A stretch of 38,931 bases of DNA from a bacterium (GTDB taxonomy: Bacteria > UBA9089 > JASEGY01), in contig JBFMHI010000011.1 of assembly GCA_040753085.1 (NCBI GenBank), forward strand, positions 1 to 38,931, written 5' to 3'. This document shows, in pieces, positions 6,253 through 32,689 of this stretch. Every line of letters starts with the position of its first letter. Within the stretch, counting starts at the first letter, position 1. The notes beneath the pieces are model-generated. The model was not told where the DNA came from. It saw only the letters and a program-made list of their open reading frames with translations, and did not search any database. Made by a program: the position numbers and the translations under genes.

Positions 6253-6831
6253 ATGAAACCTGAGGCTGTATTTCTGGATCGAGATGGGGTAATTAATGAG
6301 GAGGTAGATTACTTAGGTAACCCGGAGGAACTTTTTTTGCTGCCTGGGGCGGCTTCGGCCATTCGGGAACTGAATCAAAAAGGCATAAAGGTAATTGTGG
6401 TTACTAACCAATCCGGTGTGGCTCGAGGTTACTTCAGCGAAGAAACAGTGGCGGATATTCACCAACGTCTTAAATACCTGCTGGCCAGAGAGGGGGCATA
6501 TCTTGATGCTATTTACTACTGTCCTCACCATCCTGAAGCCCCGCTTGACCAATACAGAAAGGCTTGTGCCTGCCGCAAGCCAGGATCGGCTATGCTTGAA
6601 ACCGCGGCGCATGATTTCGGTCTAGATCTAAGCCACTGTTATCTGGTGGGAGACAAAATGCTGGATATAGAGGCAGGTGCGGCAGTCAATTGCAGGACAA
6701 TTCTTGTCTTAACCGGTTATGGAGAGGCTGAATTGAAGAAGGAGAAGACCCTTTATCCCGATGCGGTGGCCAAGGACCTTTCTCAGGCCGTAGAGATGAT
6801 TTTATCGCTTCTTTCCTCCGCCGCGTTTTGA
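6253..6831 (+). CDS. gmhB: D-glycero-beta-D-manno-heptose-1,7-bisphosphate 7-phosphatase
   Basis: A HAD-superfamily phosphatase of about 192 aa removing the 7-phosphate of heptose bisphosphate. Visible motifs: catalytic FLDRDGVIN (motif I, two Asp), VVTNQSGVARGYF (motif II), the zinc loop CPHHP...CACRKP, and VGDKMLDIEAG (motif III/IV). An in-frame TTG at 6244 would add three residues, but ATG 6253 begins the usual family N-terminus (MKPEAVFLDRDG). The last 30 nt overlap the convergent S1-domain gene. Confidence 0.93.
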   Translation: MKPEAVFLDRDGVINEEVDYLGNPEELFLLPGAASAIRELNQKGIKVIVVTNQSGVARGYFSEETVADIHQRLKYLLAREGAYLDAIYYCPHHPEAPLDQYRKACACRKPGSAMLETAAHDFGLDLSHCYLVGDKMLDIEAGAAVNCRTILVLTGYGEAELKKEKTLYPDAVAKDLSQAVEMILSLLSSAAF

Positions 6832-7251
6832 TTCTAAATTTTTTTTCATATCCTGAATTTTTTCCTGGCTTTCTTTCATAAACCGGGCCAGTTTATCTTC
6901 AAAAGAGAAAGGCGCGGCTGAACGATGCTCTCTTCTATCTTCTTCCTCTTTGAATCCGGCTTTAGGGCTTAAGGGTTTGCTAATTTTTACTTCTTCATTT
7001 TTGGGCCGGGCGGCAGGTGTTTCCCGCTCTTTCAGAGAGAGATCAAGATTTCCCTTCTTAGCAATCCCGATGACCTTAGCGGTGACGGAATCATTTACTT
7101 TAAGATGGTCTTCCACCCGCTTGACGTAAGTATCAGCAATCTGAGATATATGAATAAGACCTCGCCTTTTGCCCTCCACTTCAACAAAGGCCCCAAATTC
7201 AGTGGTCTTAACTACCTTTCCCGTAACAATACTTCCTACTTCAATGGACAA
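6802..7251 (-). CDS. S1-domain RNA-binding protein (YugI/CvfD-type)
   Basis: A 149 aa protein with one N-terminal S1 domain (about 1-75: VGSIVTGKVVKTTEFGAFVEVE, GLIHISQI, V..GDSV-type strand, DLSLKE) and a basic disordered tail ending in KRGGGKKR. Similar small S1 proteins (general stress protein 13 type) associate with the 30S ribosome or RNA, and that role is inferred here. The start is TTG at 7251, supported by a strong SD (AAGGAGG complement, 7260-7266). A consensus promoter lies at 7366-7394, and between promoter and SD sits a complete mobile palindromic repeat (7267-7354). The 3' end overlaps gmhB by 30 bp. Confidence 0.85.
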   Translation of the reverse strand: MSIEVGSIVTGKVVKTTEFGAFVEVEGKRRGLIHISQIADTYVKRVEDHLKVNDSVTAKVIGIAKKGNLDLSLKERETPAARPKNEEVKISKPLSPKAGFKEEEDRREHRSAAPFSFEDKLARFMKESQEKIQDMKKNLESKRGGGKKR

Positions 7252-7484: not shown

Positions 7485-7561
7485 GGGCGGGTAGCTCAGT
7501 TGGCCAGAGCACTTGCTTTACACGCAAGGGGTCATAGGTTCAAGTCCTGTCCCGCCCACCA
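7485..7561 (+). tRNA. tRNA-Val(TAC)
   Basis: Complete cloverleaf: acceptor GGGCGGG (7485-7491) pairs with CCCGCCC (7551-7557), the D arm contains TAGCTCAGTTGG, the anticodon stem CTTGC/GCAAG encloses loop TTTACAC with anticodon TAC, and the T arm contains GGTTCAAGTCC. Discriminator A and CCA are encoded (7558-7561). The accessory region begins just downstream. The tRNA 3' end shows no obvious duplication that would mark an attachment site. Confidence 0.96.
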
Positions 7562-7714: not shown

Positions 7715-7904
7715 GATGCAGAGACGGTTCGGGGCAGGTGACGCCTGCCGTTCCTCCAGCACCGCTGTAGAGGGCGATGTTTCAATCAGATGCAGAGACG
7801 GTTCGGGGCAGGTGACGCCTGCCGTTCCTCCAGCACCGCTGTAGAGGGCGATGTTTCAATCAGATGCAGAGACGGTTCGGGGCAGGTGATGCCTGCCGTT
7901 AGGT
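7715..7904. repeat. 74-bp tandem repeat (2.5 copies) ending in a GTTAGGT core
   Basis: Two identical 74-bp units (7715-7788, 7789-7862) and a truncated third (7863-7900, one mismatch). Each unit contains a hairpin GGCAGG/CCTGCC. In the third copy the sequence after GCCTGCC switches to GTTAGGT (7898-7904), which matches the attC R' consensus GTTRRRY and opens the cassette region. Because whole units are identical this is not a CRISPR. The stretch from 7562 to 7714 has only AT-rich DNA and an 8-bp GCATCCGC/GCGGATGC hairpin (about 7696-7719). Confidence 0.8.
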
Positions 7905-7932
7905 GCTGTATACATAGCGTTGGAGGATATGC

Positions 7933-8559
7933 ATGAACCGTTGGTGCCATCTGTTCTGCTTAGTGATGGCGAGCCTCCTCGAGGGTTGCATTCCTTTTTC
8001 GTCGTTCCAGTCGGCTCGGATCGTGCCACCACATAAGACGCAGACAGTGGTAGCCGTGTCGCATCTTGGCTATTATGGGTCGGACGGAGAGGACGAAGAG
8101 GATGTAACTGAATGGACGTGTCTTGACGCTCGTATGCGGAGGGGGATAAAGTCGCGGCTTGACGGAGCCATCGGGTTTACTCTGATGTGGGAATCGGGCG
8201 GTTCTGGGGGAATAGCTGTCCTGGGGGGAGATCTGCGGTACGGTATTTGGCCTGACCGCATTACTGTGTCTCTGCCGGCTTCAGTTATAGTGGGTGTGCT
8301 TTTGACGCTGGAGGTCCAGCCGGGAGTGATAATGACAATGCCGATCCACGAAGGTTGGGATCTTAGTGCTGGAGCCAGGGGCCACGTGTTAGTCCTGGCA
8401 GGGGATGAGGTGTCCGTCTGGTCGTGTGGCGTCGGGGTAGGAATCCCGTTGAGGTCGAGTGGCTGGATTGTTCGTCCGGAGGTCGGCTTTTTGTTCCTCG
8501 AATCCGGGGACGAGTCGTACACCCAGGTGGGCATAGGTCTAGAGAGTCCTATGAGGTGA
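7933..8559 (+). CDS. Putative lipoprotein, beta-rich (cassette gene 1)
   Basis: Unrecognised 208 aa protein. The N-terminus has a basic start, a short hydrophobic stretch and LEGC, a plausible lipobox with lipidation at Cys19. The rest alternates short beta-like strands with glycine turns (GVGVGIPLRSSGWIVRPEVGFLFLESG, YTQVGIGLES at the end), as in small outer-membrane beta-barrels. The gene is richer in GC than the neighbouring core genes. It is followed 35 nt downstream by an attC site, and the order promoterless gene-attC fits an integron cassette. Surface or envelope location is inferred. Confidence 0.6.
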   Translation: MNRWCHLFCLVMASLLEGCIPFSSFQSARIVPPHKTQTVVAVSHLGYYGSDGEDEEDVTEWTCLDARMRRGIKSRLDGAIGFTLMWESGGSGGIAVLGGDLRYGIWPDRITVSLPASVIVGVLLTLEVQPGVIMTMPIHEGWDLSAGARGHVLVLAGDEVSVWSCGVGVGIPLRSSGWIVRPEVGFLFLESGDESYTQVGIGLESPMR

Positions 8560-8594
8560 ACGGTGGTGCTGAAACGTAGATATGCAGGAACGGC

Positions 8595-8705
8595 ACCCAA
8601 CCAGTGGCTGGAGCGGACTTGGCTACGGCAGCACGACTCTTGCGGGTGTCGCTGGCAACAGCTCCGTCGCCTCCGTCGCGCCGCTCAGCCACCGCGCTGT
8701 TAGAC
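8595..8705 (+). other. Integron attC recombination site 1
   Basis: R'' ACCCAAC (8595-8601) and R' GTTAGAC (8699-8705) fit RYYYAAC/GTTRRRY. Between them GTGGCTGgAGCGG (8604-8616) pairs with CCGCTCAGCCAC (8681-8692), leaving one unpaired G, the extrahelical base typical of attC. Orientation is canonical, downstream of a plus-strand gene. Confidence 0.82.
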
Positions 8706-8754
8706 CGGAATGTGATGTGACGGTTAGAGAACCATGCTCGAAGGAGTTGGCCTA

Positions 8755-9323
8755 ATGATCACCATATCATGGAAGTATTTGCTTGCGGGAGCCTTTATAC
8801 CTTAGCGGTCACAGTGGCGAGTGCAACCTTCGCAGTCTCAAGACTGGCTACCGAGAGCTACGTGAACGCTTTGCAGCTGCAGGTCGCTCAGCTCGACAGG
8901 AGAGTGCAAGAGCTCCAATTCAGCTTTGATTCCCGCCGGCAGCCGTCCGGCGAAACAAGCAGGAATTCTGAGCCTGTGCCGCGGGCGGGCGGCAGCCGCG
9001 AACAGAGGCCATCGATAACCTTCAGGGAGCCGAGAAACGGGGCCCAAGTTCCCCAGTTCATTGACGTCGAGTATACAATAGGGACAGTACCAACTGGTTA
9101 TCGTGCCATTCTCCTAGTGAGGGACCCGTTGGGCCAGTATTGGTCATGGGGTACATCGGCGTCAGGTCGTCACATCCGAGTTCAAATCGGTGTTGCGGAA
9201 GACAGTGGGCGGCAATTTGAGATTGGAGTGTTGATTACGGACCGGGAGGTTCCTTTCGGTCAACCCCGGCAGACTGTGCCTGACGGAATTGCGTACGAGT
9301 CCATAAGTGTTATGCGAAGGTAG
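8755..9323 (+). pseudogene. Membrane-anchored coiled-coil protein, apparent frameshift (cassette gene 2)
   Basis: The open frame from ATG 8769 encodes 184 aa: a hydrophobic stretch, a coiled coil around LQLQVAQLDRRVQELQ, a linker, and a beta-rich domain (ITFREPRNGAQVPQFIDVEYTI...) of a type seen in Ig-like folds. The well-spaced SD (AAGGAG, 8741-8746) however serves ATG 8755, whose frame reads MITISWKYLLAGAFIP and then stops at about 8803. Joining the two frames by one missing base gives a normal membrane anchor, so I think this gene carries a one-base deletion near 8785-8803 or an assembly error. No known family recognised. Flanked on both sides by attC sites. Confidence 0.5.
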
Positions 9324-9341
9324 ACACAGTGCTGATCCACA

Positions 9342-9399
9342 GTCTAACCAATAAATCCAGCGGATGGCTTACAGCCCCTACTGATTTAAGTCGTTAGAG
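9342..9399 (+). other. Integron attC recombination site 2
   Basis: R'' GTCTAAC (9342-9348), R' GTTAGAG (9393-9399, last base off consensus). TAAATCcAG after R'' pairs with CTGATTTA before R', again with a single extrahelical base. 58 bp, close to the classic 59-base element. Confidence 0.75.
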
Positions 9400-9437
9400 G
9401 AAAAATGACTAAAAAGTAAAATGAGAGGTTAAATGGT

Positions 9438-9827
9438 ATGGGTTATGTACGAACAAGAATTGAAATAGGTAATCCAAGAAATCCAAAACTGAAAAGAATA
9501 GAGAAAGAAGCTCTTGTAGATACAGGAGCATTGATGCTTTGTATTCCTGAACATATCTGTATTCAGATGGGCTTTGAAGAACTTGAGAAAAGAGAAGTTA
9601 TAGCAGCTGATGGTAAAAAGCAATTGGTACCTTATGTTGGACCCGTTTTAGTGCATTTTGAAAATAGAAGCTGTTTTGTAGGGGCTTTAGTATTGGGTGA
9701 TGATGTTTTGCTTGGCGCAGTTCCTATGGAAGATATGGACTTAATAGTATCGCCAGCTCATAAAAAAGTCGTTGTAAATCCCGACAGTCCTAATTTTCCT
9801 CAAGCTTTAGTTAAACAAAATATCTAA
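9438..9827 (+). CDS. Retropepsin-like aspartic protease (clan AA), copy 1
   Basis: 129 aa single-domain protein with the active-site motif ALVDTGA (Asp28) and a hydrophobic-Gly flap region (LLGAVPMEDMDL), as in gag-polyprotein-putative-aspartyl-protease families of prokaryotes (PF13650/PF13975-like). Such domains act as dimers. Substrates are unknown. No signal peptide. ATG 9438 has SD GAGAGG (9423-9428), and an out-of-frame ATG sits at 9433. Low GC compared with cassette genes 1 and 2, consistent with a different origin. Downstream lies an attC half site. Confidence 0.75.
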   Translation: MGYVRTRIEIGNPRNPKLKRIEKEALVDTGALMLCIPEHICIQMGFEELEKREVIAADGKKQLVPYVGPVLVHFENRSCFVGALVLGDDVLLGAVPMEDMDLIVSPAHKKVVVNPDSPNFPQALVKQNI

Positions 9828-9839
9828 CAAGCGATTGCG
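9822..9839 (+). other. Truncated attC (R'' half only)
   Basis: ATCTAAC (9822-9828) followed by AAGCG looks like the left half of an attC overlapping the protease stop codon. The right half is absent, and group II intron-like sequence follows instead. Confidence 0.4.
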
Positions 9840-10072
9840 AAAGGAGTAAGCAAAACCTATGTAGGTCGCCGTTGATACAAATATTGTACCGTTTCCTGAC
9901 GCATGATGATGAAGAACAATATCAAGAGACGTATGCCGTGTTTCAGTGCTCCCGAGTGTATATCTCGAATACGGTGTTTTTGGAAACAGTGAGATGCTTG
10001 AGCTGTAGGGGGAAACTTCCATGTACAGTTCTTAGGGAGGAATGGGGCTGAAAGGCCCTTGACCTACCCGAT
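9840..10072 (+). mobile_element. Group II intron 3' remnant (domains V and VI)
   Basis: Domain V can be folded at 10000-10031: GAGCTGTA pairs with TACAGTTC (containing the AGC triad), with an upper stem GGGG/TTCC closed by GAAAC. A domain VI-like hairpin (GGGGCTGAAAGGCCC) and the 3' end CCTACCCGAT at about 10072 follow. No reverse transcriptase frame and no recognisable 5' domains remain, so the left border is arbitrary. The next gene starts 37 nt after the intron end. Confidence 0.6.
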
Positions 10073-10108
10073 GATAGGAAGAAATGATAGGACAGAGGAG
10101 AAAATGAC

Positions 10109-10492
10109 ATGGGCATGTTTAGGAAAAAGGTAATAGTTTCTAACAGCAAGGATCCTAATCAGTTCTTTGAAGAAGAATTTTGGGTAGATACGGGAGCTCT
10201 TTATTCCTTTGTCCCTGAGGATTATCTGGAAAGGATAGGCGTAGAACCGTCAGCAAAACGGAATCTGATTCTTGCTGACGGACGGCAGGATATGAGACTA
10301 CTTGGTTTTTGTGACTTTCAGATTGAAGATTTCGAAGGCAATATTCCTTGCCCCGTGATTTTCGCACCAAAGGGCTCTCTGTTCTTGCTTGGAGCGACAG
10401 CTTTGGAGAACTTTGGCGTCGAAGTGGATCCGATTCAGAAAAAGTTGAAGCCGATTCTGGCTATTATTGGGGGATTCTTGGCTTCACAATGA
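10109..10492 (+). CDS. Retropepsin-like aspartic protease (clan AA), copy 2
   Basis: 127 aa, with active site WVDTGA (Asp27) and the second-half signature LLGATALENFGVEVDP characteristic of prokaryotic clan AA proteases. Only distantly similar to the copy at 9438 (shared DTGA, EE.R-NLILADGR versus REVIAADGK, LGA), so not a recent duplication. Start ATG 10109 with SD GAGGAG (10095-10100). Its attC overlaps the 3' end region. Cytoplasmic by prediction, substrate unknown. Confidence 0.77.
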   Translation: MGMFRKKVIVSNSKDPNQFFEEEFWVDTGALYSFVPEDYLERIGVEPSAKRNLILADGRQDMRLLGFCDFQIEDFEGNIPCPVIFAPKGSLFLLGATALENFGVEVDPIQKKLKPILAIIGGFLASQ

Positions 10493-10496
10493 CAAT

Positions 10497-10555
10497 CGCT
10501 AACAACTGCGTGGAGCGGACGCGGTAAACCGCGCCGCTCACGTAGGCCGTTAGGT
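10497..10555 (+). other. Integron attC recombination site 3 (59 bp)
   Basis: CGCTAAC (10497-10503) and GTTAGGT (10549-10555). CGTGgAGCGG pairs with CCGCTCACG with one extrahelical G, and the tip is GCGG-TAAA-CCGC. The most textbook-like attC in the window. Confidence 0.88.
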
Positions 10556-10564
10556 CATAGAACG

Positions 10565-10921
10565 ATGAAAAGAAATCGTATTATCATTGTGTTTTGTACG
10601 CTCTTCGTTATCGCTTTCGCTGGATTCGCTATTGTGCGTTGGTATCATGTCAAAACCTACTTACAGACGCAAGAAAAAATAATCAAAAATGAACTTAACA
10701 CAGTGCAGATTAAGCACTCACGCTCGAATGCAAGTGATGGTGTGAAACGATTTCTCGATACTGGAAAACTTATTGCTGTTCCATCTTATTTTGTCCAACC
10801 AAGCAAGATGTACGAGGCCAACATGTATTACATAAGGGTTTTCCCTAGAGTAACGACCCACAATGAAGATGGATGGGTTGGAAGAAATAAATCAGGAAAC
10901 TGGTACGTAAAAATATTTTGA
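10565..10921 (+). CDS. Small single-pass membrane protein (cassette gene)
   Basis: 118 aa, unrecognised. The N-terminus MKRNRIIIVFCTLFVIAFAGF is a clear membrane anchor or uncleaved signal; the remaining ~90 residues are extracytoplasmic, basic, with KRFLDTGKLIAVPSYF and a Trp/Tyr-rich end (GWVGRNKSGNWYVKIF). Starts only 10 nt after the attC, as is usual for cassettes; no strong SD. No function proposed. Confidence 0.55.
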   Translation: MKRNRIIIVFCTLFVIAFAGFAIVRWYHVKTYLQTQEKIIKNELNTVQIKHSRSNASDGVKRFLDTGKLIAVPSYFVQPSKMYEANMYYIRVFPRVTTHNEDGWVGRNKSGNWYVKIF

Positions 10922-10937
10922 CCTAATACATGTTAGA

Positions 10938-10966
10938 TTGAAAAATAGACAATATTATGTTATAAT
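10938..10966 (+). promoter_or_regulatory. Sigma70-type promoter of the DUF5678-protease pair
   Basis: TTGAAA (10938-10943), 17-nt spacer, TATAAT (10961-10966). The start site would fall near 10973, giving a very short leader to ATG 10984. An internal promoter means these cassette genes need no upstream integron promoter. Confidence 0.7.
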
Positions 10967-10983
10967 TTTAAATGGAGGGAATG

Positions 10984-11181
10984 ATGGAAAAAGTATTAGT
11001 TAACTCTAATAAATACAACGGTCAATATGTTGCAATCATAAGCGTTGATGATAACACTATAGTTGGCTCTGGCAATACTCCAGATGAGGCTTTATCTAAA
11101 GCACAGAAAAAAGGCATTCAAAAACCTTTTATCCTTTATGTTCCAGATAAAGATTTAGTTCATATCTATCATGTTGATTGA
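10984..11181 (+). CDS. DUF5678-like small protein
   Basis: About 65 aa: MEKVLVNSNKYNGQYVAIIS, then a short beta-alpha pattern (DNTIVGSGNTPDEALSKAQKKG) ending ILYVPDKDLVHIYHVD. The pattern matches the DUF5678 family, which I recall as commonly encoded just upstream of retropepsin-like proteases, as here. ATG 10984 is preferred because GGAGG (10974-10978) lies 5 nt upstream; ATG 10972 and 10981 are alternatives. Overlaps the next gene by 11 nt. Function unknown; perhaps a substrate or inhibitor of the protease. Confidence 0.7.
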   Translation: MEKVLVNSNKYNGQYVAIISVDDNTIVGSGNTPDEALSKAQKKGIQKPFILYVPDKDLVHIYHVD

Positions 11182-11566
11182 AAATTATCCTTTTACAATT
11201 ACGAGAGTAGGAGATATCGCTAGACCATATCTTCCTATTACAATTATTAATCCTGAGAATCAAAAAGAAATCAATGTGTTTGCCTTAGTTGATACTGGAG
11301 CAGATGAATGCGCTCTGCCTGCCACATTTGCCCTACCTTTGGGACATAATTTACAATCAGGCTACCAGAAAAGAATAAGTACTGGTAATGGGATAACTAC
11401 CGCTTATAGCCACACTGTCTGTATAAAAGCATTTAACTTCTTAACCGAAAATGTCTTGATTGATTTTATGCCAAATTTACATATTCCACTACTCGGTGTA
11501 AAAAGTTTCCTAAGTAATTTTATTTTGAAGATTGATTACCATGAAAAAATATTCTCAATAATATAA
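11171..11566 (+). CDS. Retropepsin-like aspartic protease (clan AA), copy 3
   Basis: 131 aa with FALVDTGADECALP (Asp41), the classic DTGAD version of the clan AA active site, and IPLLGVKSFLSNFILKID as the second conserved strand. Different from the two upstream proteases. Translationally coupled to the DUF5678-like gene by an ATG within its last codons. Ends 7 nt before an attC. Predicted cytoplasmic; partner and substrate unknown. Confidence 0.8.
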   Translation: MLIENYPFTITRVGDIARPYLPITIINPENQKEINVFALVDTGADECALPATFALPLGHNLQSGYQKRISTGNGITTAYSHTVCIKAFNFLTENVLIDFMPNLHIPLLGVKSFLSNFILKIDYHEKIFSII

Positions 11567-11572
11567 AAATCA

Positions 11573-11632
11573 ATCTAACAATTCACTTCACCTGACCGCC
11601 ATTCTGGCGGCAGGTGAGTTCTATCGTTAGAC
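11573..11632 (+). other. Integron attC recombination site 4 (60 bp)
   Basis: ATCTAAC (11573-11579) and GTTAGAC (11626-11632) both match consensus. ACTtCACCTG pairs with CAGGTGAGT with one extrahelical T, and the apical stem is CCGCCA/TGGCGG. Last attC of the first cluster. Confidence 0.88.
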
Positions 11633-11636
11633 AATA

Positions 11637-11825
11637 ATACCGAAAATAGAGGAAGAACATTTTACCAAGATAATTGTTGACAGTGTAAAAAATTACCAGA
11701 AGAATTTTTCTTATAGTAATGGTTTATCAGCAGAAAAGACAATAACACTCCTTGCCTTTTTAGATACAATGGGCTATTCAAGAAGATGTTCAAAGAGTAT
11801 GGTTAAATACGGGGTGGTGGTGTAG
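11637..11825 (+). pseudogene. Open frame running into tRNA-Asp, probable cassette-gene remnant
   Basis: A stop-free stretch of 63 codons (IPKIEEEHFTKIIVDSVKNY...LLAFLDTMGYSRRCSKSMVKY) has protein-like composition but no usual start codon, and its stop lies inside the tRNA gene. It directly follows attC 4, so it may be the broken first gene of a lost cassette. No family recognised. Confidence 0.3.
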
Positions 11826-11889
11826 CTAGGTTTAACATATCGGCCTGTCACGCCGAAGATCGCGGGTTCAAATCCCGTCCACCCCGCCA
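11811..11889 (+). tRNA. tRNA-Asp(GTC)
   Basis: Acceptor GGGGTGG (11811-11817) pairs with CCACCCC (11879-11885); anticodon arm TCGGC-CTGTCAC-GCCGA gives anticodon GTC; T arm GCGGGTTCAAATCCCGT; G discriminator and encoded CCA (11886-11889). Marks the right edge of the first cassette region. Confidence 0.95.
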
Positions 11890-12068: not shown

Positions 12069-13082
12069 TTACTTCATAATCAACTCAGCGAAATCCTCAA
12101 ATTCTTCCAATGACTTTACTTCTATCCCCTTCCTGTGAAGAACCTTTAAGATGGAAGCATCTCTTATTTTATTTAATCTCTCCACAATTGATTGGGGAAC
12201 AGCCTCAAAACGCCGATCAAGAATATCAAGGATTCCCTGCTGCAATCCCTGCTGCAATCCCTGCTGCAATCCCTGCTGCAATCCTTGCTGCAATCCCTGC
12301 TGCATTCCTTCTTCTCTTAACACCTCAGCTATGGTAGGCATGATCTCACCTCCTTTATCCAGTAAGGCTTCATCTACCGCCGCCTTGACGTCTTCATAGG
12401 TAACATTAGAGGCAGCATTGAGTATGTATTTCAAAATGGTTTCCAAGTATTCCAGAGCCGTTCGCTTTTCCAAAAGATTTCTTAAAAGACTAAGTATTCC
12501 AGGAAGATGGTCTGTTAAATCCTCTCTAAATATGTATTTTAAAATAAGCAGCGTCATCCGTAAGATGACCTCCCCCTTGATATCCTCATCATTGTACCCG
12601 GACGCATCCCAAAGCAGATACTGAAAATCAGGGATAAACTGAACCAGATCATCAGAATAGGCAAAAAGGTCTCTGAAATTTAAGCCGGCCTGCCAATCTC
12701 CCTCGCCGTGATATAGTACCAAGGGAATGATTACCGGAAACCCCCTTTCATCTTCCTTCTTCTTAAGCCACATTTCCCATATCTTTACCATATACCTGAG
12801 AATATGAAAGGCGGTTAAAATTTCAGCATAGCTCTTGTGCTCAAAAAGGATATACACATACCCCCCTGAACCGTCCTTGAGATCTACCTCGAAAAGCAGA
12901 TCAGAGAAATATTCCTTCAGGTGTTTGTCTATAAATGAATCCTTGGTGTATTCCAGGGAATCCAAATCAAGCAGACTAACCACCTTATTAGGCAGATAAT
13001 TCAGGAGAAATTCCCTGGCTGTATTCTTTCGCGTAAAAACCTCTTTGAAGAATTTGTCGTGAGGATTAATGATCTGTTCCAT
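12069..13082 (-). CDS. Rpn/YhgA-like PD-(D/E)XK nuclease family protein (transposase_31)
   Basis: About 337 aa. The N-terminus MEQIINPHDKFFKEVFTRKN, then YTKDSFIDKHLKEYFSDLLFEVDL (catalytic Asp-x(n)-E), YVYILFEHKS (E-x-K-like) and PVIIPLVLYHGEGDW are hallmarks of recombination-promoting nuclease/putative transposase PF04754. The C-terminal quarter has the repeat QQGL x5-6, encoded by a 12-bp tandem repeat (12232-12303), then a helical tail. An in-frame TTG at 13208 would add 42 residues, but ATG 13082 begins the usual family sequence. Members act in RecA-independent recombination in E. coli; here that is inference. Confidence 0.85.
   Translation of the reverse strand: MEQIINPHDKFFKEVFTRKNTAREFLLNYLPNKVVSLLDLDSLEYTKDSFIDKHLKEYFSDLLFEVDLKDGSGGYVYILFEHKSYAEILTAFHILRYMVKIWEMWLKKKEDERGFPVIIPLVLYHGEGDWQAGLNFRDLFAYSDDLVQFIPDFQYLLWDASGYNDEDIKGEVILRMTLLILKYIFREDLTDHLPGILSLLRNLLEKRTALEYLETILKYILNAASNVTYEDVKAAVDEALLDKGGEIMPTIAEVLREEGMQQGLQQGLQQGLQQGLQQGLQQGILDILDRRFEAVPQSIVERLNKIRDASILKVLHRKGIEVKSLEEFEDFAELIMK
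12232..12303. repeat. 12-bp in-frame tandem repeat within the Rpn-like gene
   Basis: Six units of AATCCCTGCTGC with minor variation, encoding Gln-Gln-Gly-Leu repeats. Copy number likely varies by slippage without breaking the frame. Confidence 0.85.
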
Positions 13083-13216
13083 AAATAACCTGACTTCCTT
13101 ACTGAAAACTGGAGCGTAAGAGAGGAAGAATTTACTGTGGCCTTCCCGTTCTAACCGAAGCAGATATCTTACCCATTGAAATATAGCATAGATGTTACTC
13201 TTTGTCAAATAGAATC

Positions 13217-28662: not shown

Positions 28663-29654
28663 AAAACTACAAATTCTGGGTCAGCATTCTACTTAGCATT
28701 TTTTTCCTCTGGCTGGCCGTGCGAGGGGTCGACCTTGATGAGATGATAGAAGCGATTGCTAAGGTTAGTTGGGTTTATATTATTCCTATCGGAGTGGTCA
28801 GCTTAAGCACTTTTATTCTCCGGGCCTTCCGGTGGAGGTACCTGCTCAGTTATGAAAAACACATCAGGCTTCACTCACTTTTTTCCTATACCATTATTGG
28901 GTTTATGGCCAACAATGTCTTTCCTTTACGGATTGGCGAGCTGGTTCGGGCTTACATTATTGGCAAAAAGGAAGAAATCTCTAAGATCCGCTCTTTAGCC
29001 ACTATTATCATGGAGCGAATATTCGATGGCCTATCTTTACTTTTTTTTCTAACCCTGGTTCTGCTTTACCACCCTGGTTTTCCTGATTGGGTAAAAGAAA
29101 TGGGTCTGATGCTGGCCCCTGTCTTCTTTCTTGCTTTTGGCGGGCTTATTGTATTGGAGTGGCATCAAGACTGGTTCCTGAAGTTTACCCATTGGCTGAC
29201 GGGACATATTTCACCTAAACTGTCAAGTAGAGTAGTGGGCAGTTTACAGTCCTTTATCCACGGACTGGCTATCTTACGTCGAATAGATCATCTTCTGATA
29301 ACTTTTTTTCTCTCTTTAGCCCTTTGGGTAGTTTATGCCGGTATGTTCTACCTGGCCCTTCAGGCTTTTCATATCCATCATTTACCCTTGTATGCTTCTT
29401 TGTTCGTTCTGACAGTGACTGCCTTTGGGGTGATGCTCCCTTCTTCACCTGGTTTTATCGGCCCCTTTCAGTATTTTTGCGCCAAGGCCCTTCTTCTGAT
29501 GGGGCTTAAAGATAAAAGCCTGGCTTTAAGCTATGCCTTCTTCCTTCACGCTATTCAGTATGTCCTTATTACTTTAGTTGGTTTGGGCTATCTTTGGAAG
29601 GAAAATCTCTCCTTTAGTGATCTGAAGAAGGCCAAGGAAACGAATGAAGTTTAA
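28659..29654 (+). CDS. Lysylphosphatidylglycerol-synthase-TM / UPF0104-type membrane protein
   Basis: 331 aa with about 8 TM helices, matching the flippase-like LPG_synthase_TM (AglD) family: RAFRWRYLLSYEKHIRLHSLFSYTIIGFMANNVFPLRIGELVRAYIIGKKEEISKIRSLATIIMERIFDGL near the N-terminus and PSSPGFIGPFQYF near the end are the conserved segments. Family members transport or modify lipids or lipid-linked sugars. Coupled to the upstream glycosyltransferase by a 4-nt overlap, which suggests one glycolipid or polysaccharide pathway. The group II intron begins just after its stop. Confidence 0.85.
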   Translation: MKNYKFWVSILLSIFFLWLAVRGVDLDEMIEAIAKVSWVYIIPIGVVSLSTFILRAFRWRYLLSYEKHIRLHSLFSYTIIGFMANNVFPLRIGELVRAYIIGKKEEISKIRSLATIIMERIFDGLSLLFFLTLVLLYHPGFPDWVKEMGLMLAPVFFLAFGGLIVLEWHQDWFLKFTHWLTGHISPKLSSRVVGSLQSFIHGLAILRRIDHLLITFFLSLALWVVYAGMFYLALQAFHIHHLPLYASLFVLTVTAFGVMLPSSPGFIGPFQYFCAKALLLMGLKDKSLALSYAFFLHAIQYVLITLVGLGYLWKENLSFSDLKKAKETNEV

Positions 29655-29659
29655 GGCAG

Positions 29660-30372
29660 GAGGAGGTTAAGGCCGGTTACAGAAGTTACCGACGGAAAAC
29701 CTGGGCGTCGGGGAAGGGATTCCAGCAACCCCGGCGAGCCTGGAAAGCAGGGACACAAATCTCTGGAATCAGCCTGCCGAACGACAACGTTGAAGCGTAC
29801 ACAGGGCACCACACAGACCGTAGGGAAGACCGCACTTCCCAAAGTTTGATACAGCCTCGTTAAAGAGTGAGGGGGCGCAAGTCTCAAGAGCAGATGGCGA
29901 TGGTTCCTTCGCAAGCTCAGGACATGGTTAACGGGCCAGAAGCTACCACAGAGAGAGCGCTTTGGTGAGTTCTCCGAGGGTCTGCCGGGGTTCACTTTAG
30001 AGCGTGGTATGTGTGGAGAGAAGCATCAGGGACTTGGGATGCCCCAGCGGTTCCTGGGCTGGTACATGGGTTTAGGAGAGTCAGAAACCACTGGGGAGTC
30101 AGATCAGCCCATAGTACTCAGAGAACGGTAGGGCCGTTCACAGGGGGAAGGGGCTGACAGTCATTCGTAGCCTGCATAGGCAACATTGGCCGGACAAGGA
30201 GGGCCGGGAGTCAATGTCCACTTTCTTGCAGGGAATAGCGAAGAAGGCTCGGGCTGGGCGGGTCTACTAGGGCCGAAGGCGGAAGCAAGGATAACTGAAG
30301 AGCCCGATGCGGGAAAACTGCATGCCGGGATCTGTGCGGGGGCGGTCAGGTAACTAGCCGTCCTACCGCGAT
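29660..30372 (+). mobile_element. Degenerate group II intron lacking its reverse transcriptase
   Basis: Domain V folds at 30300-30332 (GAGCCCG...CGGGATC lower stem, TGCGG/CTGCA upper stem with GAAA), domain VI and the end CCTACCGCGAT at 30372 follow. Upstream are structured domain I-III-like sequences (from about 29665) and only the first codons of the maturase: ESDQPIVLRER then stop (30096-30131), and SMSTFLQGIAKKARAG in another frame to a stop at 30270. Everything from the RT catalytic domain onward is deleted, joining the ORF start almost directly to domain V. The 5' boundary is uncertain; no clear GTGYG start. Confidence 0.7.
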
Positions 30373-30387
30373 GGCTGTCAAAAAATA
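30326..30387 (+). repeat. 62-bp direct repeat, copy 1 (intron 3' end plus exon)
   Basis: Covers the 3' strand of domain V, domain VI and 15 nt beyond the intron (GGCTGTCAAAAAATA). Identical to 31027-31088, exactly 701 bp away. Confidence 0.9.
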
Positions 30388-30406
30388 AACTGTGGGGGTG
30401 ATTGTT

Positions 30407-30655
30407 ATGCCACGATTGACAATGGAAGGGGTGTATCATAAGGGGATTATTATTCCCCAAGAAGAGGTGCCATATAATTCGGATATGCGAGTCTTGATTA
30501 CATTTACTAAAAAAATTCCAAGGAGGGAACTTTATGCTTACACTCCCCAAATTCAGAAGGCATTAGCAAAAGCAGAGGCAAACTATAAGGCAGGTAAATT
30601 CAAGGAATATAAAGATGCGGATACCTTATTCAAGGATTTGAATAATGCTGCTTGA
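30407..30655 (+). CDS. Antitoxin of a RelBE/ParDE-type module
   Basis: 82 aa. N-terminal beta strands MPRLTMEGVYHKGIIIPQEEV...MRVLITF resemble the AF2212/DUF104-like antitoxin start; the C-terminal half (ALAKAEANYKAGKFKEYKDADTLFKDLN) is a RelB-like toxin-binding helix. ATG 30407 has SD-like GGGGGTG (30394-30400); a GTG at 30392 is less likely. Overlaps the toxin gene by 11 nt. Begins 35 nt after the group II intron end. Confidence 0.75.
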   Translation: MPRLTMEGVYHKGIIIPQEEVPYNSDMRVLITFTKKIPRRELYAYTPQIQKALAKAEANYKAGKFKEYKDADTLFKDLNNAA

Positions 30656-30914
30656 AAGAAAAATTGCCAAAGATGATAATTTTGATAAGTATTATGACGC
30701 TTTGCCAGAATACATCAAAAGAAAGTTTGAGAAGCAAGTAAGGTTTTTGTTGAAGAACCCAAAACATCCATCGCTGAAGATTCATCGATTTGAAAGTATT
30801 AAAGGATTGTGGGAATTTTATGTAGATGATTACTATCGATGTTTGTTTTCAATCGAAAGTAACACTTACCTTCTTAAATGGGTTGGAACCCATCTGCAGA
30901 TGGAGAGGAAGTAG
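30645..30914 (+). CDS. RelE/ParE-family toxin
   Basis: 89 aa, typical size. Helix-helix N-terminus (FDKYYDALPEYIKRKFEKQVRFLLKNPKHPSLKIHRF) and beta-sheet end GLWEFYVDDYYRCLFSIESNTYLLKWVGTHLQMERK are characteristic of YafQ/RelE-like ribosome-dependent mRNA interferases. The catalytic His/Arg residues appear present (R in YYRCLF, H in GTHLQ). Coupled to the antitoxin. Followed by a truncated attC, so probably acquired as an integron cassette. Confidence 0.85.
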   Translation: MLLERKIAKDDNFDKYYDALPEYIKRKFEKQVRFLLKNPKHPSLKIHRFESIKGLWEFYVDDYYRCLFSIESNTYLLKWVGTHLQMERK

Positions 30915-31001
30915 TGTTTTTTAAAAAAGGGATAAAAAGCGTTAATTTAGCTAGATAAGTAAGTATCTTAAGACACGAGAAAATTGCAAAGCGGACTTTT
31001 T

Positions 31002-31026
31002 GCCTAACCAATCGCTGAAGATACGT
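31002..31026 (+). other. Truncated attC (left half) abutting the intron-derived repeat
   Basis: GCCTAAC (31002-31008) is a perfect R''; AATCGCTGAAG follows as L''-like sequence, after which the site is replaced by copy 2 of the 62-bp intron-end repeat at 31027. Preceding GGACTTTTTG matches the context before the attC at 32513 (GGACTTTTGT). Confidence 0.6.
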
Positions 31027-31088
31027 CGGGATCTGTGCGGGGGCGGTCAGGTAACTAGCCGTCCTACCGCGATGGCTGTCAAAAAATA
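31027..31088 (+). repeat. 62-bp direct repeat, copy 2 (intron 3' end plus exon)
   Basis: Identical to 30326-30387. The rest of the intron is missing here. Confidence 0.9.
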
Positions 31089-31110
31089 GCGACTGGAGAT
31101 TGGAAAGGAT

Positions 31111-31440
31111 ATGAAAGCAAAGGCAATTCCTGACGATGTGAGAAAAAGTGTTGAAGAAATCGTCGAGCGATTCAACCGCGAGAACTTGAGGAGAGACGAC
31201 TGCTACTACTCAGTGCGGTTCAGAGGGAGATGCGCTTATCTTGACCGATACGCCTATGGCAAGGTGGGGCCAATATGCTGCCTCAGGTATACAGGAAAGA
31301 TGGATGGCTGGGAATTCGCCATATTCAAGTGGAGCAGTGAAACATACGATCCAAAAGAGTGGATGTTCCCAGGCATTAGCCTTGTAGATGGAACCATTGA
31401 AGGGGCAATGAAGGCTGGATTGAAAGCATATCCGGTATAA
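31111..31440 (+). CDS. Hypothetical cassette protein
   Basis: 109 aa soluble protein of unknown function: helical start (DDVRKSVEEIVERFNRENL), then a beta-rich core with CYYSVRFRGRCAYLDRYAYGKVGPICCLRYTG and WEFAIFKWSSETYDPKEWMFPG, and a final helix (DGTIEGAMKAGLKAYP). The pattern is one I associate with hypothetical proteins in integron arrays. SD AAAGGA before ATG. Its stop codon overlaps the attC R'' sequence. No signal peptide. Confidence 0.65.
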   Translation: MKAKAIPDDVRKSVEEIVERFNRENLRRDDCYYSVRFRGRCAYLDRYAYGKVGPICCLRYTGKMDGWEFAIFKWSSETYDPKEWMFPGISLVDGTIEGAMKAGLKAYPV

Positions 31441-31562
31441 CAACATGATGGAGCCGACCGCGCATCAGGCATACGATGTTTGGGCAGGCATTGTGGGATT
31501 GGCTCTCCGCCTTTGGCAGTTTTTCCATAGTTCTACGCGGCGGCTCATCGCGGGCGTTAGAT
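31435..31562 (+). other. Integron attC recombination site 5 (128 bp)
   Basis: GTATAAC (31435-31441) and GTTAGAT (31556-31562). GATGgAGCC pairs with GGCTCATC, leaving one extrahelical G, followed by CGCG-rich pairing. Canonical orientation downstream of the hypothetical gene. Confidence 0.78.
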
Positions 31563-31743
31563 GGTTCGAGAATTGAGACATGTTGACATGCTCCGCTCGC
31601 CCAAAACAACACCGCTTGGTGCTTGAGGCGAGTAGGAGTATTTGAGGAGGTGGGAGAAATGGGGCACTGAAAAGTACAAAACCAGAAGAGAAAGGGAACG
31701 GTGATAGACTATGCCAAAATTATACAACAAAGGAGTGATTTAA

Positions 31744-32007
31744 ATGAGAAAATCAGTTATCCATGATAAAATAATGGAAGAAATTAAATTTATTCCAGAA
31801 GATAAACTGTCAGAGATATACGATGTTATTCATTATTTTTGGATAGGTTTGCAAAAATCTAAAGTGAATATTAACCAGATAATGCAATTTGCCGGTTGCT
31901 GGAATGATATTCCTGAAGATGCATTTAATGATTTTTTAGAAGAAACCAGACAACGTAGAAGTCAGGCTTTTTCAAGGAGACGAAGCGGTGGAACCAGTAT
32001 TAGTTGA
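31744..32007 (+). CDS. vapB: VapB-type antitoxin (DUF2281-like)
   Basis: 87 aa. Helical protein: KSVIHDKIMEEIKFIPEDKLSEIYDVIHYFWIGLQ is typical of DUF2281 antitoxins, and the C-terminal part (GCWNDIPEDAFNDFLEETRQRRSQAFSRRR) matches the toxin-binding 'aGsW.d..e..fe.f..ei..rR' motif. SD AAAGGAG before ATG 31744. Overlaps the PIN toxin gene by 20 nt. Confidence 0.82.
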   Translation: MRKSVIHDKIMEEIKFIPEDKLSEIYDVIHYFWIGLQKSKVNINQIMQFAGCWNDIPEDAFNDFLEETRQRRSQAFSRRRSGGTSIS

Positions 32008-32395
32008 TACAGACATCCTATCCCTGTTCTTTAGAAACCAGGATAATGTTGTCTCTAATTTCAAAAAATATCTTAACCGGTACGAAAAAATAAATCTGAG
32101 TATCATTACCTACTATGAAATTCTTAGTGGTTTAAAACACAGAGACGCATTGAAACAACTAGACTCATTTCTGGAGTTTACAAAGCATAACACTATTCTA
32201 TCGTTAACTAAAGAATCAGTTATGATTTCATCGGATTTATACAGTAATTTGCGAAAAGCAGGAAGACCGATCGATGATATTGATATCATTATTGCAGGTA
32301 TTGCTTTGTCAAACAATCTTGTTCTTGTGACCAATAATGAAGAACATTTCAGAAATATCAAAGGCTTAGAAATTTTGAATTGGAGTAAAAAATAA
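31988..32395 (+). CDS. vapC: PIN-domain toxin VapC
   Basis: 135 aa endoribonuclease of the PIN family. Acidic active-site residues are in place: Asp7 in VLVDTDILS, Glu44 in TYYEILSGL, Asp96-97 and Asp99 in RPIDDIDIIIAGIA, and LVTNNEEHFRNIKGLEILNW closes the domain. GTG start at 31988 with SD AAGGAG (31974-31979) inside the antitoxin gene. The module is followed by an attC, as in chromosomal integrons that stabilise arrays with toxin-antitoxin cassettes. Confidence 0.93.
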   Translation: MEPVLVDTDILSLFFRNQDNVVSNFKKYLNRYEKINLSIITYYEILSGLKHRDALKQLDSFLEFTKHNTILSLTKESVMISSDLYSNLRKAGRPIDDIDIIIAGIALSNNLVLVTNNEEHFRNIKGLEILNWSKK

Positions 32396-32512
32396 GGCGA
32401 CTTTGTCTAACACAGGTTAAAAGATTGACATCGGAACGTGAGTTAGGGCAGGTCTTGATTATGGAACACAGAAATAAGAAGAAAAGAAAAAAGACGGCGA
32501 AGTGGGACTTTT

Positions 32513-32646
32513 GTCTAACCAGTCGCTGCACCTGACAGTGGGGGCTGGGGTGTGTTTGAGATAGTTTTGTGATTTATCTAGGTTTTACCTTGCTAATAAA
32601 GTTTAGTGGTAATTCTCCCCGCAGCAGGTGAGCGTGCTCGTTAGTG
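32513..32646 (+). other. Integron attC recombination site 6 (134 bp)
   Basis: GTCTAAC (32513-32519) and GTTAGTG (32640-32646, off consensus at the last bases). CGCTgCACCTG pairs with CAGGTGAGCG with one extrahelical G. Large central region, within the known attC size range. Confidence 0.7.
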
Positions 32647-32689
32647 GTAGATGAGACTGAATTTGTTCATGCGGAGAGAAATATAGAAA

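Follow-up and report, generated by a model that had tools for sequence, protein, structure and literature searches.

The array of small genes that extends from position 7898 to position 11632 of the window (the whole stretch of DNA analyzed, contig C11, 38,931 bp) is very probably a “CALIN”, a chromosomal cluster of integron cassettes which was assembled by an IntI integrase in the past and which now has no integrase of its own. What was directly observed in favour of this reading is the identity of the attC sites, the absence of intI from the window, the presence of integrase remnants elsewhere in the genome, the spread of attC sites over many contigs and the gene families of the cargo; past IntI activity at the locus is what we infer. 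The array is decayed in part as well as lacking an integrase. Elements of this kind are already known, and the noteworthy part of the present results is the pattern of group II introns at the attC sites.

The source genome, that of an uncultured bacterium, is a 3.05-Mb draft in 250 contigs (97% complete), and the comparison set consists of 18 relatives from the same phylum, one of which (G001) belongs to the same genus. The attC covariance model described below has matches in 16 of the 19 phylum genomes, so that the presence of integron cassettes is documented across this small phylum of bacteria.

Identity and boundaries of the attC array

The detection of attC sites was based on a covariance model trained on 18 sites, of which nine come from class 1 integrons in E. 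coli records and nine from genomes of the same phylum, G001, G013 and G017, in which integrase genes or integrase fragments are present as well. The sites were used without their variable loop, no training site came from the window, and searches were run with the filters off. The initial annotation had placed four attC sites downstream of small genes, each with core ends, inner arms and an extrahelical base. All four features lie where it had put them, and at three of the four the covariance scores are far above the best background match in the window (12.4 bits): 55.1 bits at 11573-11632 (E=1.4e-12), 28.5 bits at 10497-10555 (E=2.2e-5) and 24.2 bits at 9342-9399 (E=3.1e-4). An in-house gapless scorer, which tolerates long loops, assigned the same sites scores of 66.5, 39.1 and 32.8, respectively. 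The RYYYAAC and GTTRRRY ends, the inner arms and the extrahelical bases on the folded bottom strand are all present, with small departures at the last base of GTTAGAG at 9393, at the first base of the 10497 site and in the spacer of the 8595-8705 site. The extrahelical bases are real, since the bottom strands of the 10497 and 11573 sites fold like the attC of aadA1.

The fourth site, at 8595-8705 (111 nt), was reported by neither the covariance model nor the gapless scorer, and the model probably missed it because it is too long. Between AAC and GTTAGAC it forms an inner stem of 12 pairs with a single bulge, and the two sides of its unpaired spacer are unequal, at 2 nt and about 6 nt. When the local 301 bp were shuffled 2000 times, a bulged stem as good as this one never arose; 7 of 200 shuffles of the whole window gave one, and the folding energy is ordinary compared to shuffled sequence (z -0.8). 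The site is a probable, atypical attC. Together with it, the three model-supported sites, about 1.1 kb apart, form the cluster on which the CALIN assignment is based.

The notion that these small genes are followed by transcription terminators or random inverted repeats, and not by attC sites, can be set aside as highly improbable, because the failure of the model to report 8595-8705, and a fold there no better than that of shuffled sequence, are outweighed at the other three sites, where it is already contradicted by conserved cores, arms and extrahelical bases, by scores of 24-55 bits against 12.4 for the best other match, by gapless scores of 32.8-66.5 for five window sites (including those of a second cluster) against a maximum of 10.8 in 30 dinucleotide-shuffled windows, and by 18 unrelated control genomes which yielded one match in all at E<=0.05, 17 of them having none. 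The source genome has 20 matches at E<=0.01.

The array sits in a housekeeping neighbourhood, between a tRNA-Val (TAC) at 7485-7561 and a tRNA-Asp (GTC) at 11811-11889, both on the plus strand and both identified by ARAGORN and Rfam. Its features are likewise all on the plus strand. Each cassette would span the interval from the G|TT of one core to the G|TT of the next, beginning with the GTTAGGT core that the initial annotation had reported to open the array and that is indeed present at 7898-7904. Cassette 1 (7899-8699) contains an ORF of 208 aa at 7933-8559 and the probable attC at 8595-8705, and cassette 2 (8700-9393) contains an ORF of 184 aa at 8769-9323 and the attC at 9342-9399; neither ORF has a Pfam match. 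Cassette 3 starts at 9394, carries a gene for a clan AA retropepsin-like aspartic protease at 9438-9827, and ends in a truncated attC, of which the left part (9822-9840, beginning ATCTAAC) overlaps the protease stop codon. This is followed by the remnant of a PIN-like gene at 9860-9990, recognized by eye from its translation (VAVDTNIVVRF after an early stop), and by the 3' end of a group II intron, domains V-VI, at 9998-10072 (Rfam RF00029, 45.5 bits). Both the truncated attC and the intron end were missed in the initial annotation. The gene of cassette 4, a second retropepsin-like protease, occupies 10109-10492; its attC lies at 10497-10555 and the cassette ends at 10549. Cassette 5 (10550-11626) holds an ORF at 10565-10921, a DUF5678 gene at 10984-11181 and a third protease gene at 11171-11566, and has its attC at 11573-11632. 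Base composition varies among the cassettes, as had been claimed, with gene GC contents that range from 0.33 to 0.57, compared to 0.45-0.47 in the flanks.

The left end of the array is sharp. A 74-bp tandem repeat of 2.5 copies occupies 7715-7900, and its third copy matches the others up to the GTT and diverges immediately after it, placing the junction at G|TT. The cassettes may have entered at a non-classical G|TT site; cassette insertion at attG-like sites has been described by Loot et al. 2024, as cited in PMC12444791. Since the interrupted repeat does not resume at the right end, insertion of the array in one step is not proven. The empty site of the array was not found in the same-genus genome, where only a transposase-like gene and an unrelated tRNA matched. 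As a guide to the orthologous locus, the S1-domain gene (6802-7251) was also tried and rejected; its matches have 42-52% identity and lie mostly within larger proteins. To the right of the array, the minus-strand gene at 12069-13208 looks like a transposase-type nuclease; it contains a 12-bp tandem repeat of about six copies (12234-12308) and has several diverged relatives in the same-genus genome, at 78-91% DNA identity.

Retropepsin-like cargo

The cargo genes had been described as small, unrelated and encoded on the plus strand. They are small plus-strand genes, but they are not unrelated, since the three at 9438, 10109 and 11171 encode predicted retropepsin-like aspartic proteases of one broad family. 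Their TIGR03698 scores are 68.3, 41.3 and 36.8 bits, respectively; only the first exceeds the curated cut-off of 57.35 bits, and the other two, which exceed the PF13975 cut-off, are for this reason called only retropepsin-like. Across 35 aligned sequences, the DTG motif keeps D28 and G30 without exception. The 9438 protein has an AlphaFold model (mean pLDDT 92.4) that matches HIV-1 protease and the retropepsin-like protease of Rickettsia. The cargo proteases are predicted to have peptidase activity, and their recurrence points to a function worth assaying.

Relatives with 55-86% identity occur in MAGs of many phyla. Among 80 named loci with relatives, only one array gene matches at the DNA level and its flanks do not; no sign of a gene order kept in distant relatives was seen at these loci, consistent with the initial reading of a cassette array. 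Only a few of the 80 loci with homologues have an attC near the protease, and of the 19 protease copies in the source genome, 5 adjoin one, which rules out the protease as an obligatory cassette gene. At one locus in a Candidatus Stahlbacteria MAG (L081, 1703-2249), two attC sites flank a homologue of the 9438 protease, an arrangement resembling a one-gene cassette in a different organism. At two attC-associated places, window 10984-11566 and L175 8466-9103, the start of a retropepsin-like protease gene is overlapped by a DUF5678 gene; none of the other protease loci examined showed a homologous pair, and with two places only it was rejected as a general pair.

Integrase remnants and dispersed attC sites

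No intI adjoins the array or occurs anywhere in the window, which extends about 7.9 kb to the left of the array and 27 kb to its right, so the earlier statement that no integrase gene is visible holds. A search of the whole 250-contig draft yielded only three IntI-like remnants and no intact copy. The best match, on contig C13, is a 3' fragment of 118 codons that contains a stop and is 62.6% identical to a same-phylum IntI; two smaller fragments lie on C125 and C197. Matches on C4 and C27 were rejected as IntI, because these recombinases of about 300 aa score below the family cut-off. On C13 (L010, 1-1500), the intI fragment lies beside a glmS-like gene; next on the same strand come a DsbD_2-family gene and an attC at the contig edge.

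An intact integrase located elsewhere or lost in the assembly would make the array part of a complete integron that remains active in cis, or in trans inside the cell. Draft assemblies are reported to inflate CALIN counts (PMC9024848), an intact intI could sit in the missing part of this fragmented draft or at a contig edge, and an IntI match above the family cut-off was found in 7 of 61 genomes in a search of relatives, several of them from the same phylum. A complete integron is nevertheless unlikely here, since the array is internal to a single contig, is flanked left and right by housekeeping genes and has no intI over the distances given above, and since the IntI-like pieces in the genome are fragments only, the C4 and C27 recombinases falling below the cut-off.

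For a CALIN, IntI would recognize the folded bottom strand of each attC, and since IntI appears to have decayed in this lineage, the array could be moved only by an integrase supplied in trans. Because the attC folds are intact, and because CALIN cassettes can be used by exogenous integrases (PMC9668308), the array could perhaps be re-mobilized in this way, judging from its sequence.

The initial interpretation of an integrase-less, CALIN-like array stands, but its description as “cluster 1” gives too small a picture: two scorers place roughly 24-30 attC sites on about 20 contigs of the source genome, singly or a few together. Several of these adjoin housekeeping genes, as named from their translations. 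In the interval between rpsG and fusA (contig C2; L174 10183-10603), an attC and an ORF of 89 aa lie in a gap of 600 bp, compared to 113 bp in the same-genus genome and about 90-200 bp in most other members of the phylum for which both genes were matched on one contig. The gap measures about 380 bp in G013 and about 2.5 kb in G018, and a search of the latter gap for attC found none. In G001 the eno-gapA interval holds other genes, and it was therefore dropped as a clean test for an empty site. A second cassette cluster lies in the window itself, at 29650-32660, with plus-strand attC sites at 31435-31562 (gapless score 42.2) and 32513-32646 (45.4). It also contains the truncated left part of an attC near 31002 and the 3' end of a group II intron at 30298-30372, with an identical 62-bp copy of the end of that intron at 31027-31088.

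These dispersed sites may have arisen from the break-up and rearrangement of one large ancestral integron, with recombination of introns and of IS elements, instead of from many insertions at G|TT. This is a real possibility, if a somewhat doubtful one. Group II intron pieces and truncated attC sites at many attC places, and three intI fragments on different contigs, are what break-up could leave behind, but the left end of the window array breaks exactly at GTT, as integrase recombination would leave it, and the rpsG-fusA interval, only 113 bp long in the same-genus genome, here holds one attC together with a small gene. The evidence leans slightly towards separate insertions of the scattered cassettes, given how sharp the GTT junction is and what is seen at rpsG-fusA.

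Introns at attC sites and comparison with known systems

Group II intron segments (D1-D4, Rfam) lie just 3' of six attC sites on other contigs, on the same strand as the attC. All six 5' ends (L179 5165 (-), L181 13063 (+), L183 11641 (-), L183 10541 (-), L188 3076 (+) and L184 9561 (+)) start at the identical base, after the sixth base of the attC R' box, and all six introns are in cassette orientation. The 5' sequence is (T/G)TGCGA(C/T)ACG, and the exon ends at the six junctions are GTTAGG, GTTAGA, GTTAGC, GTTATA, GTTAGG and TTTAGC, the last from an attC whose GTT has lost its G. The intron's first base covaries with the last base of the local short inverted repeat, T with A and G with C. 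The loci were chosen for holding attC sites, and the pattern may reflect that choice. The copies contain fragmented reading frames only. The remnant at 9998-10072 of the window belongs to the same family, to which it is linked through a copy on C1.

A tentative account of these patterns, which we consider plausible at somewhat less than even probability, is that cassettes were inserted singly at many chromosomal G|TT sites and that one intron family is specialized on the top-strand attC hairpin, inserting after the sixth base of the right core, leaving the attC nearly intact, becoming the leader of the next cassette, and potentially travelling with the cassette. The intron pattern merits a study of its own. 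A role for group II introns in the formation of cassettes has been proposed (Leon and Roy 2009, as cited in PMC7923331), and if the pattern holds in relatives, that proposal would become more directly testable. The genome also allows scattered cassettes, decayed integrases and attC-associated introns to be studied jointly.

The window array resembles known CALINs, which are thought to be degraded integrons: two or more attC sites lie within a few kb, the small genes share the cassette orientation, and no intI is nearby. It differs from them in its retropepsin-like protease genes in three cassettes and its internal group II intron remnant, and its source genome differs in the many further places that hold one or a few attC sites. 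The CALINs located away from the integrase locus in Xanthomonas (PMC12444791) are similar in that attC clusters occur at several chromosomal loci per genome, but their positions are described as relatively conserved across species, while in the one place compared here, rpsG-fusA, the interval is occupied in the source genome and not in the same-genus genome. The integrons of archaeal MAGs (PMC9668308) are likewise known from MAGs, are mostly CALINs, and have attC sites spread over many contigs of one MAG; the present genome is instead bacterial and has intI remnants. Group IIC-attC introns and UHB.I2 (PMC7923331) also adjoin attC sites, and UHB.I2 shares with the present introns the cassette orientation, the location directly after the attC and the 5'-UUGCG end. 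The group IIC-attC introns, by contrast, insert in the bottom strand of the attC, opposite to the cassettes and mostly at TTGT/T, whereas the six copies described here belong to one family, lie in the top strand, and always begin after the sixth base of the R' box.
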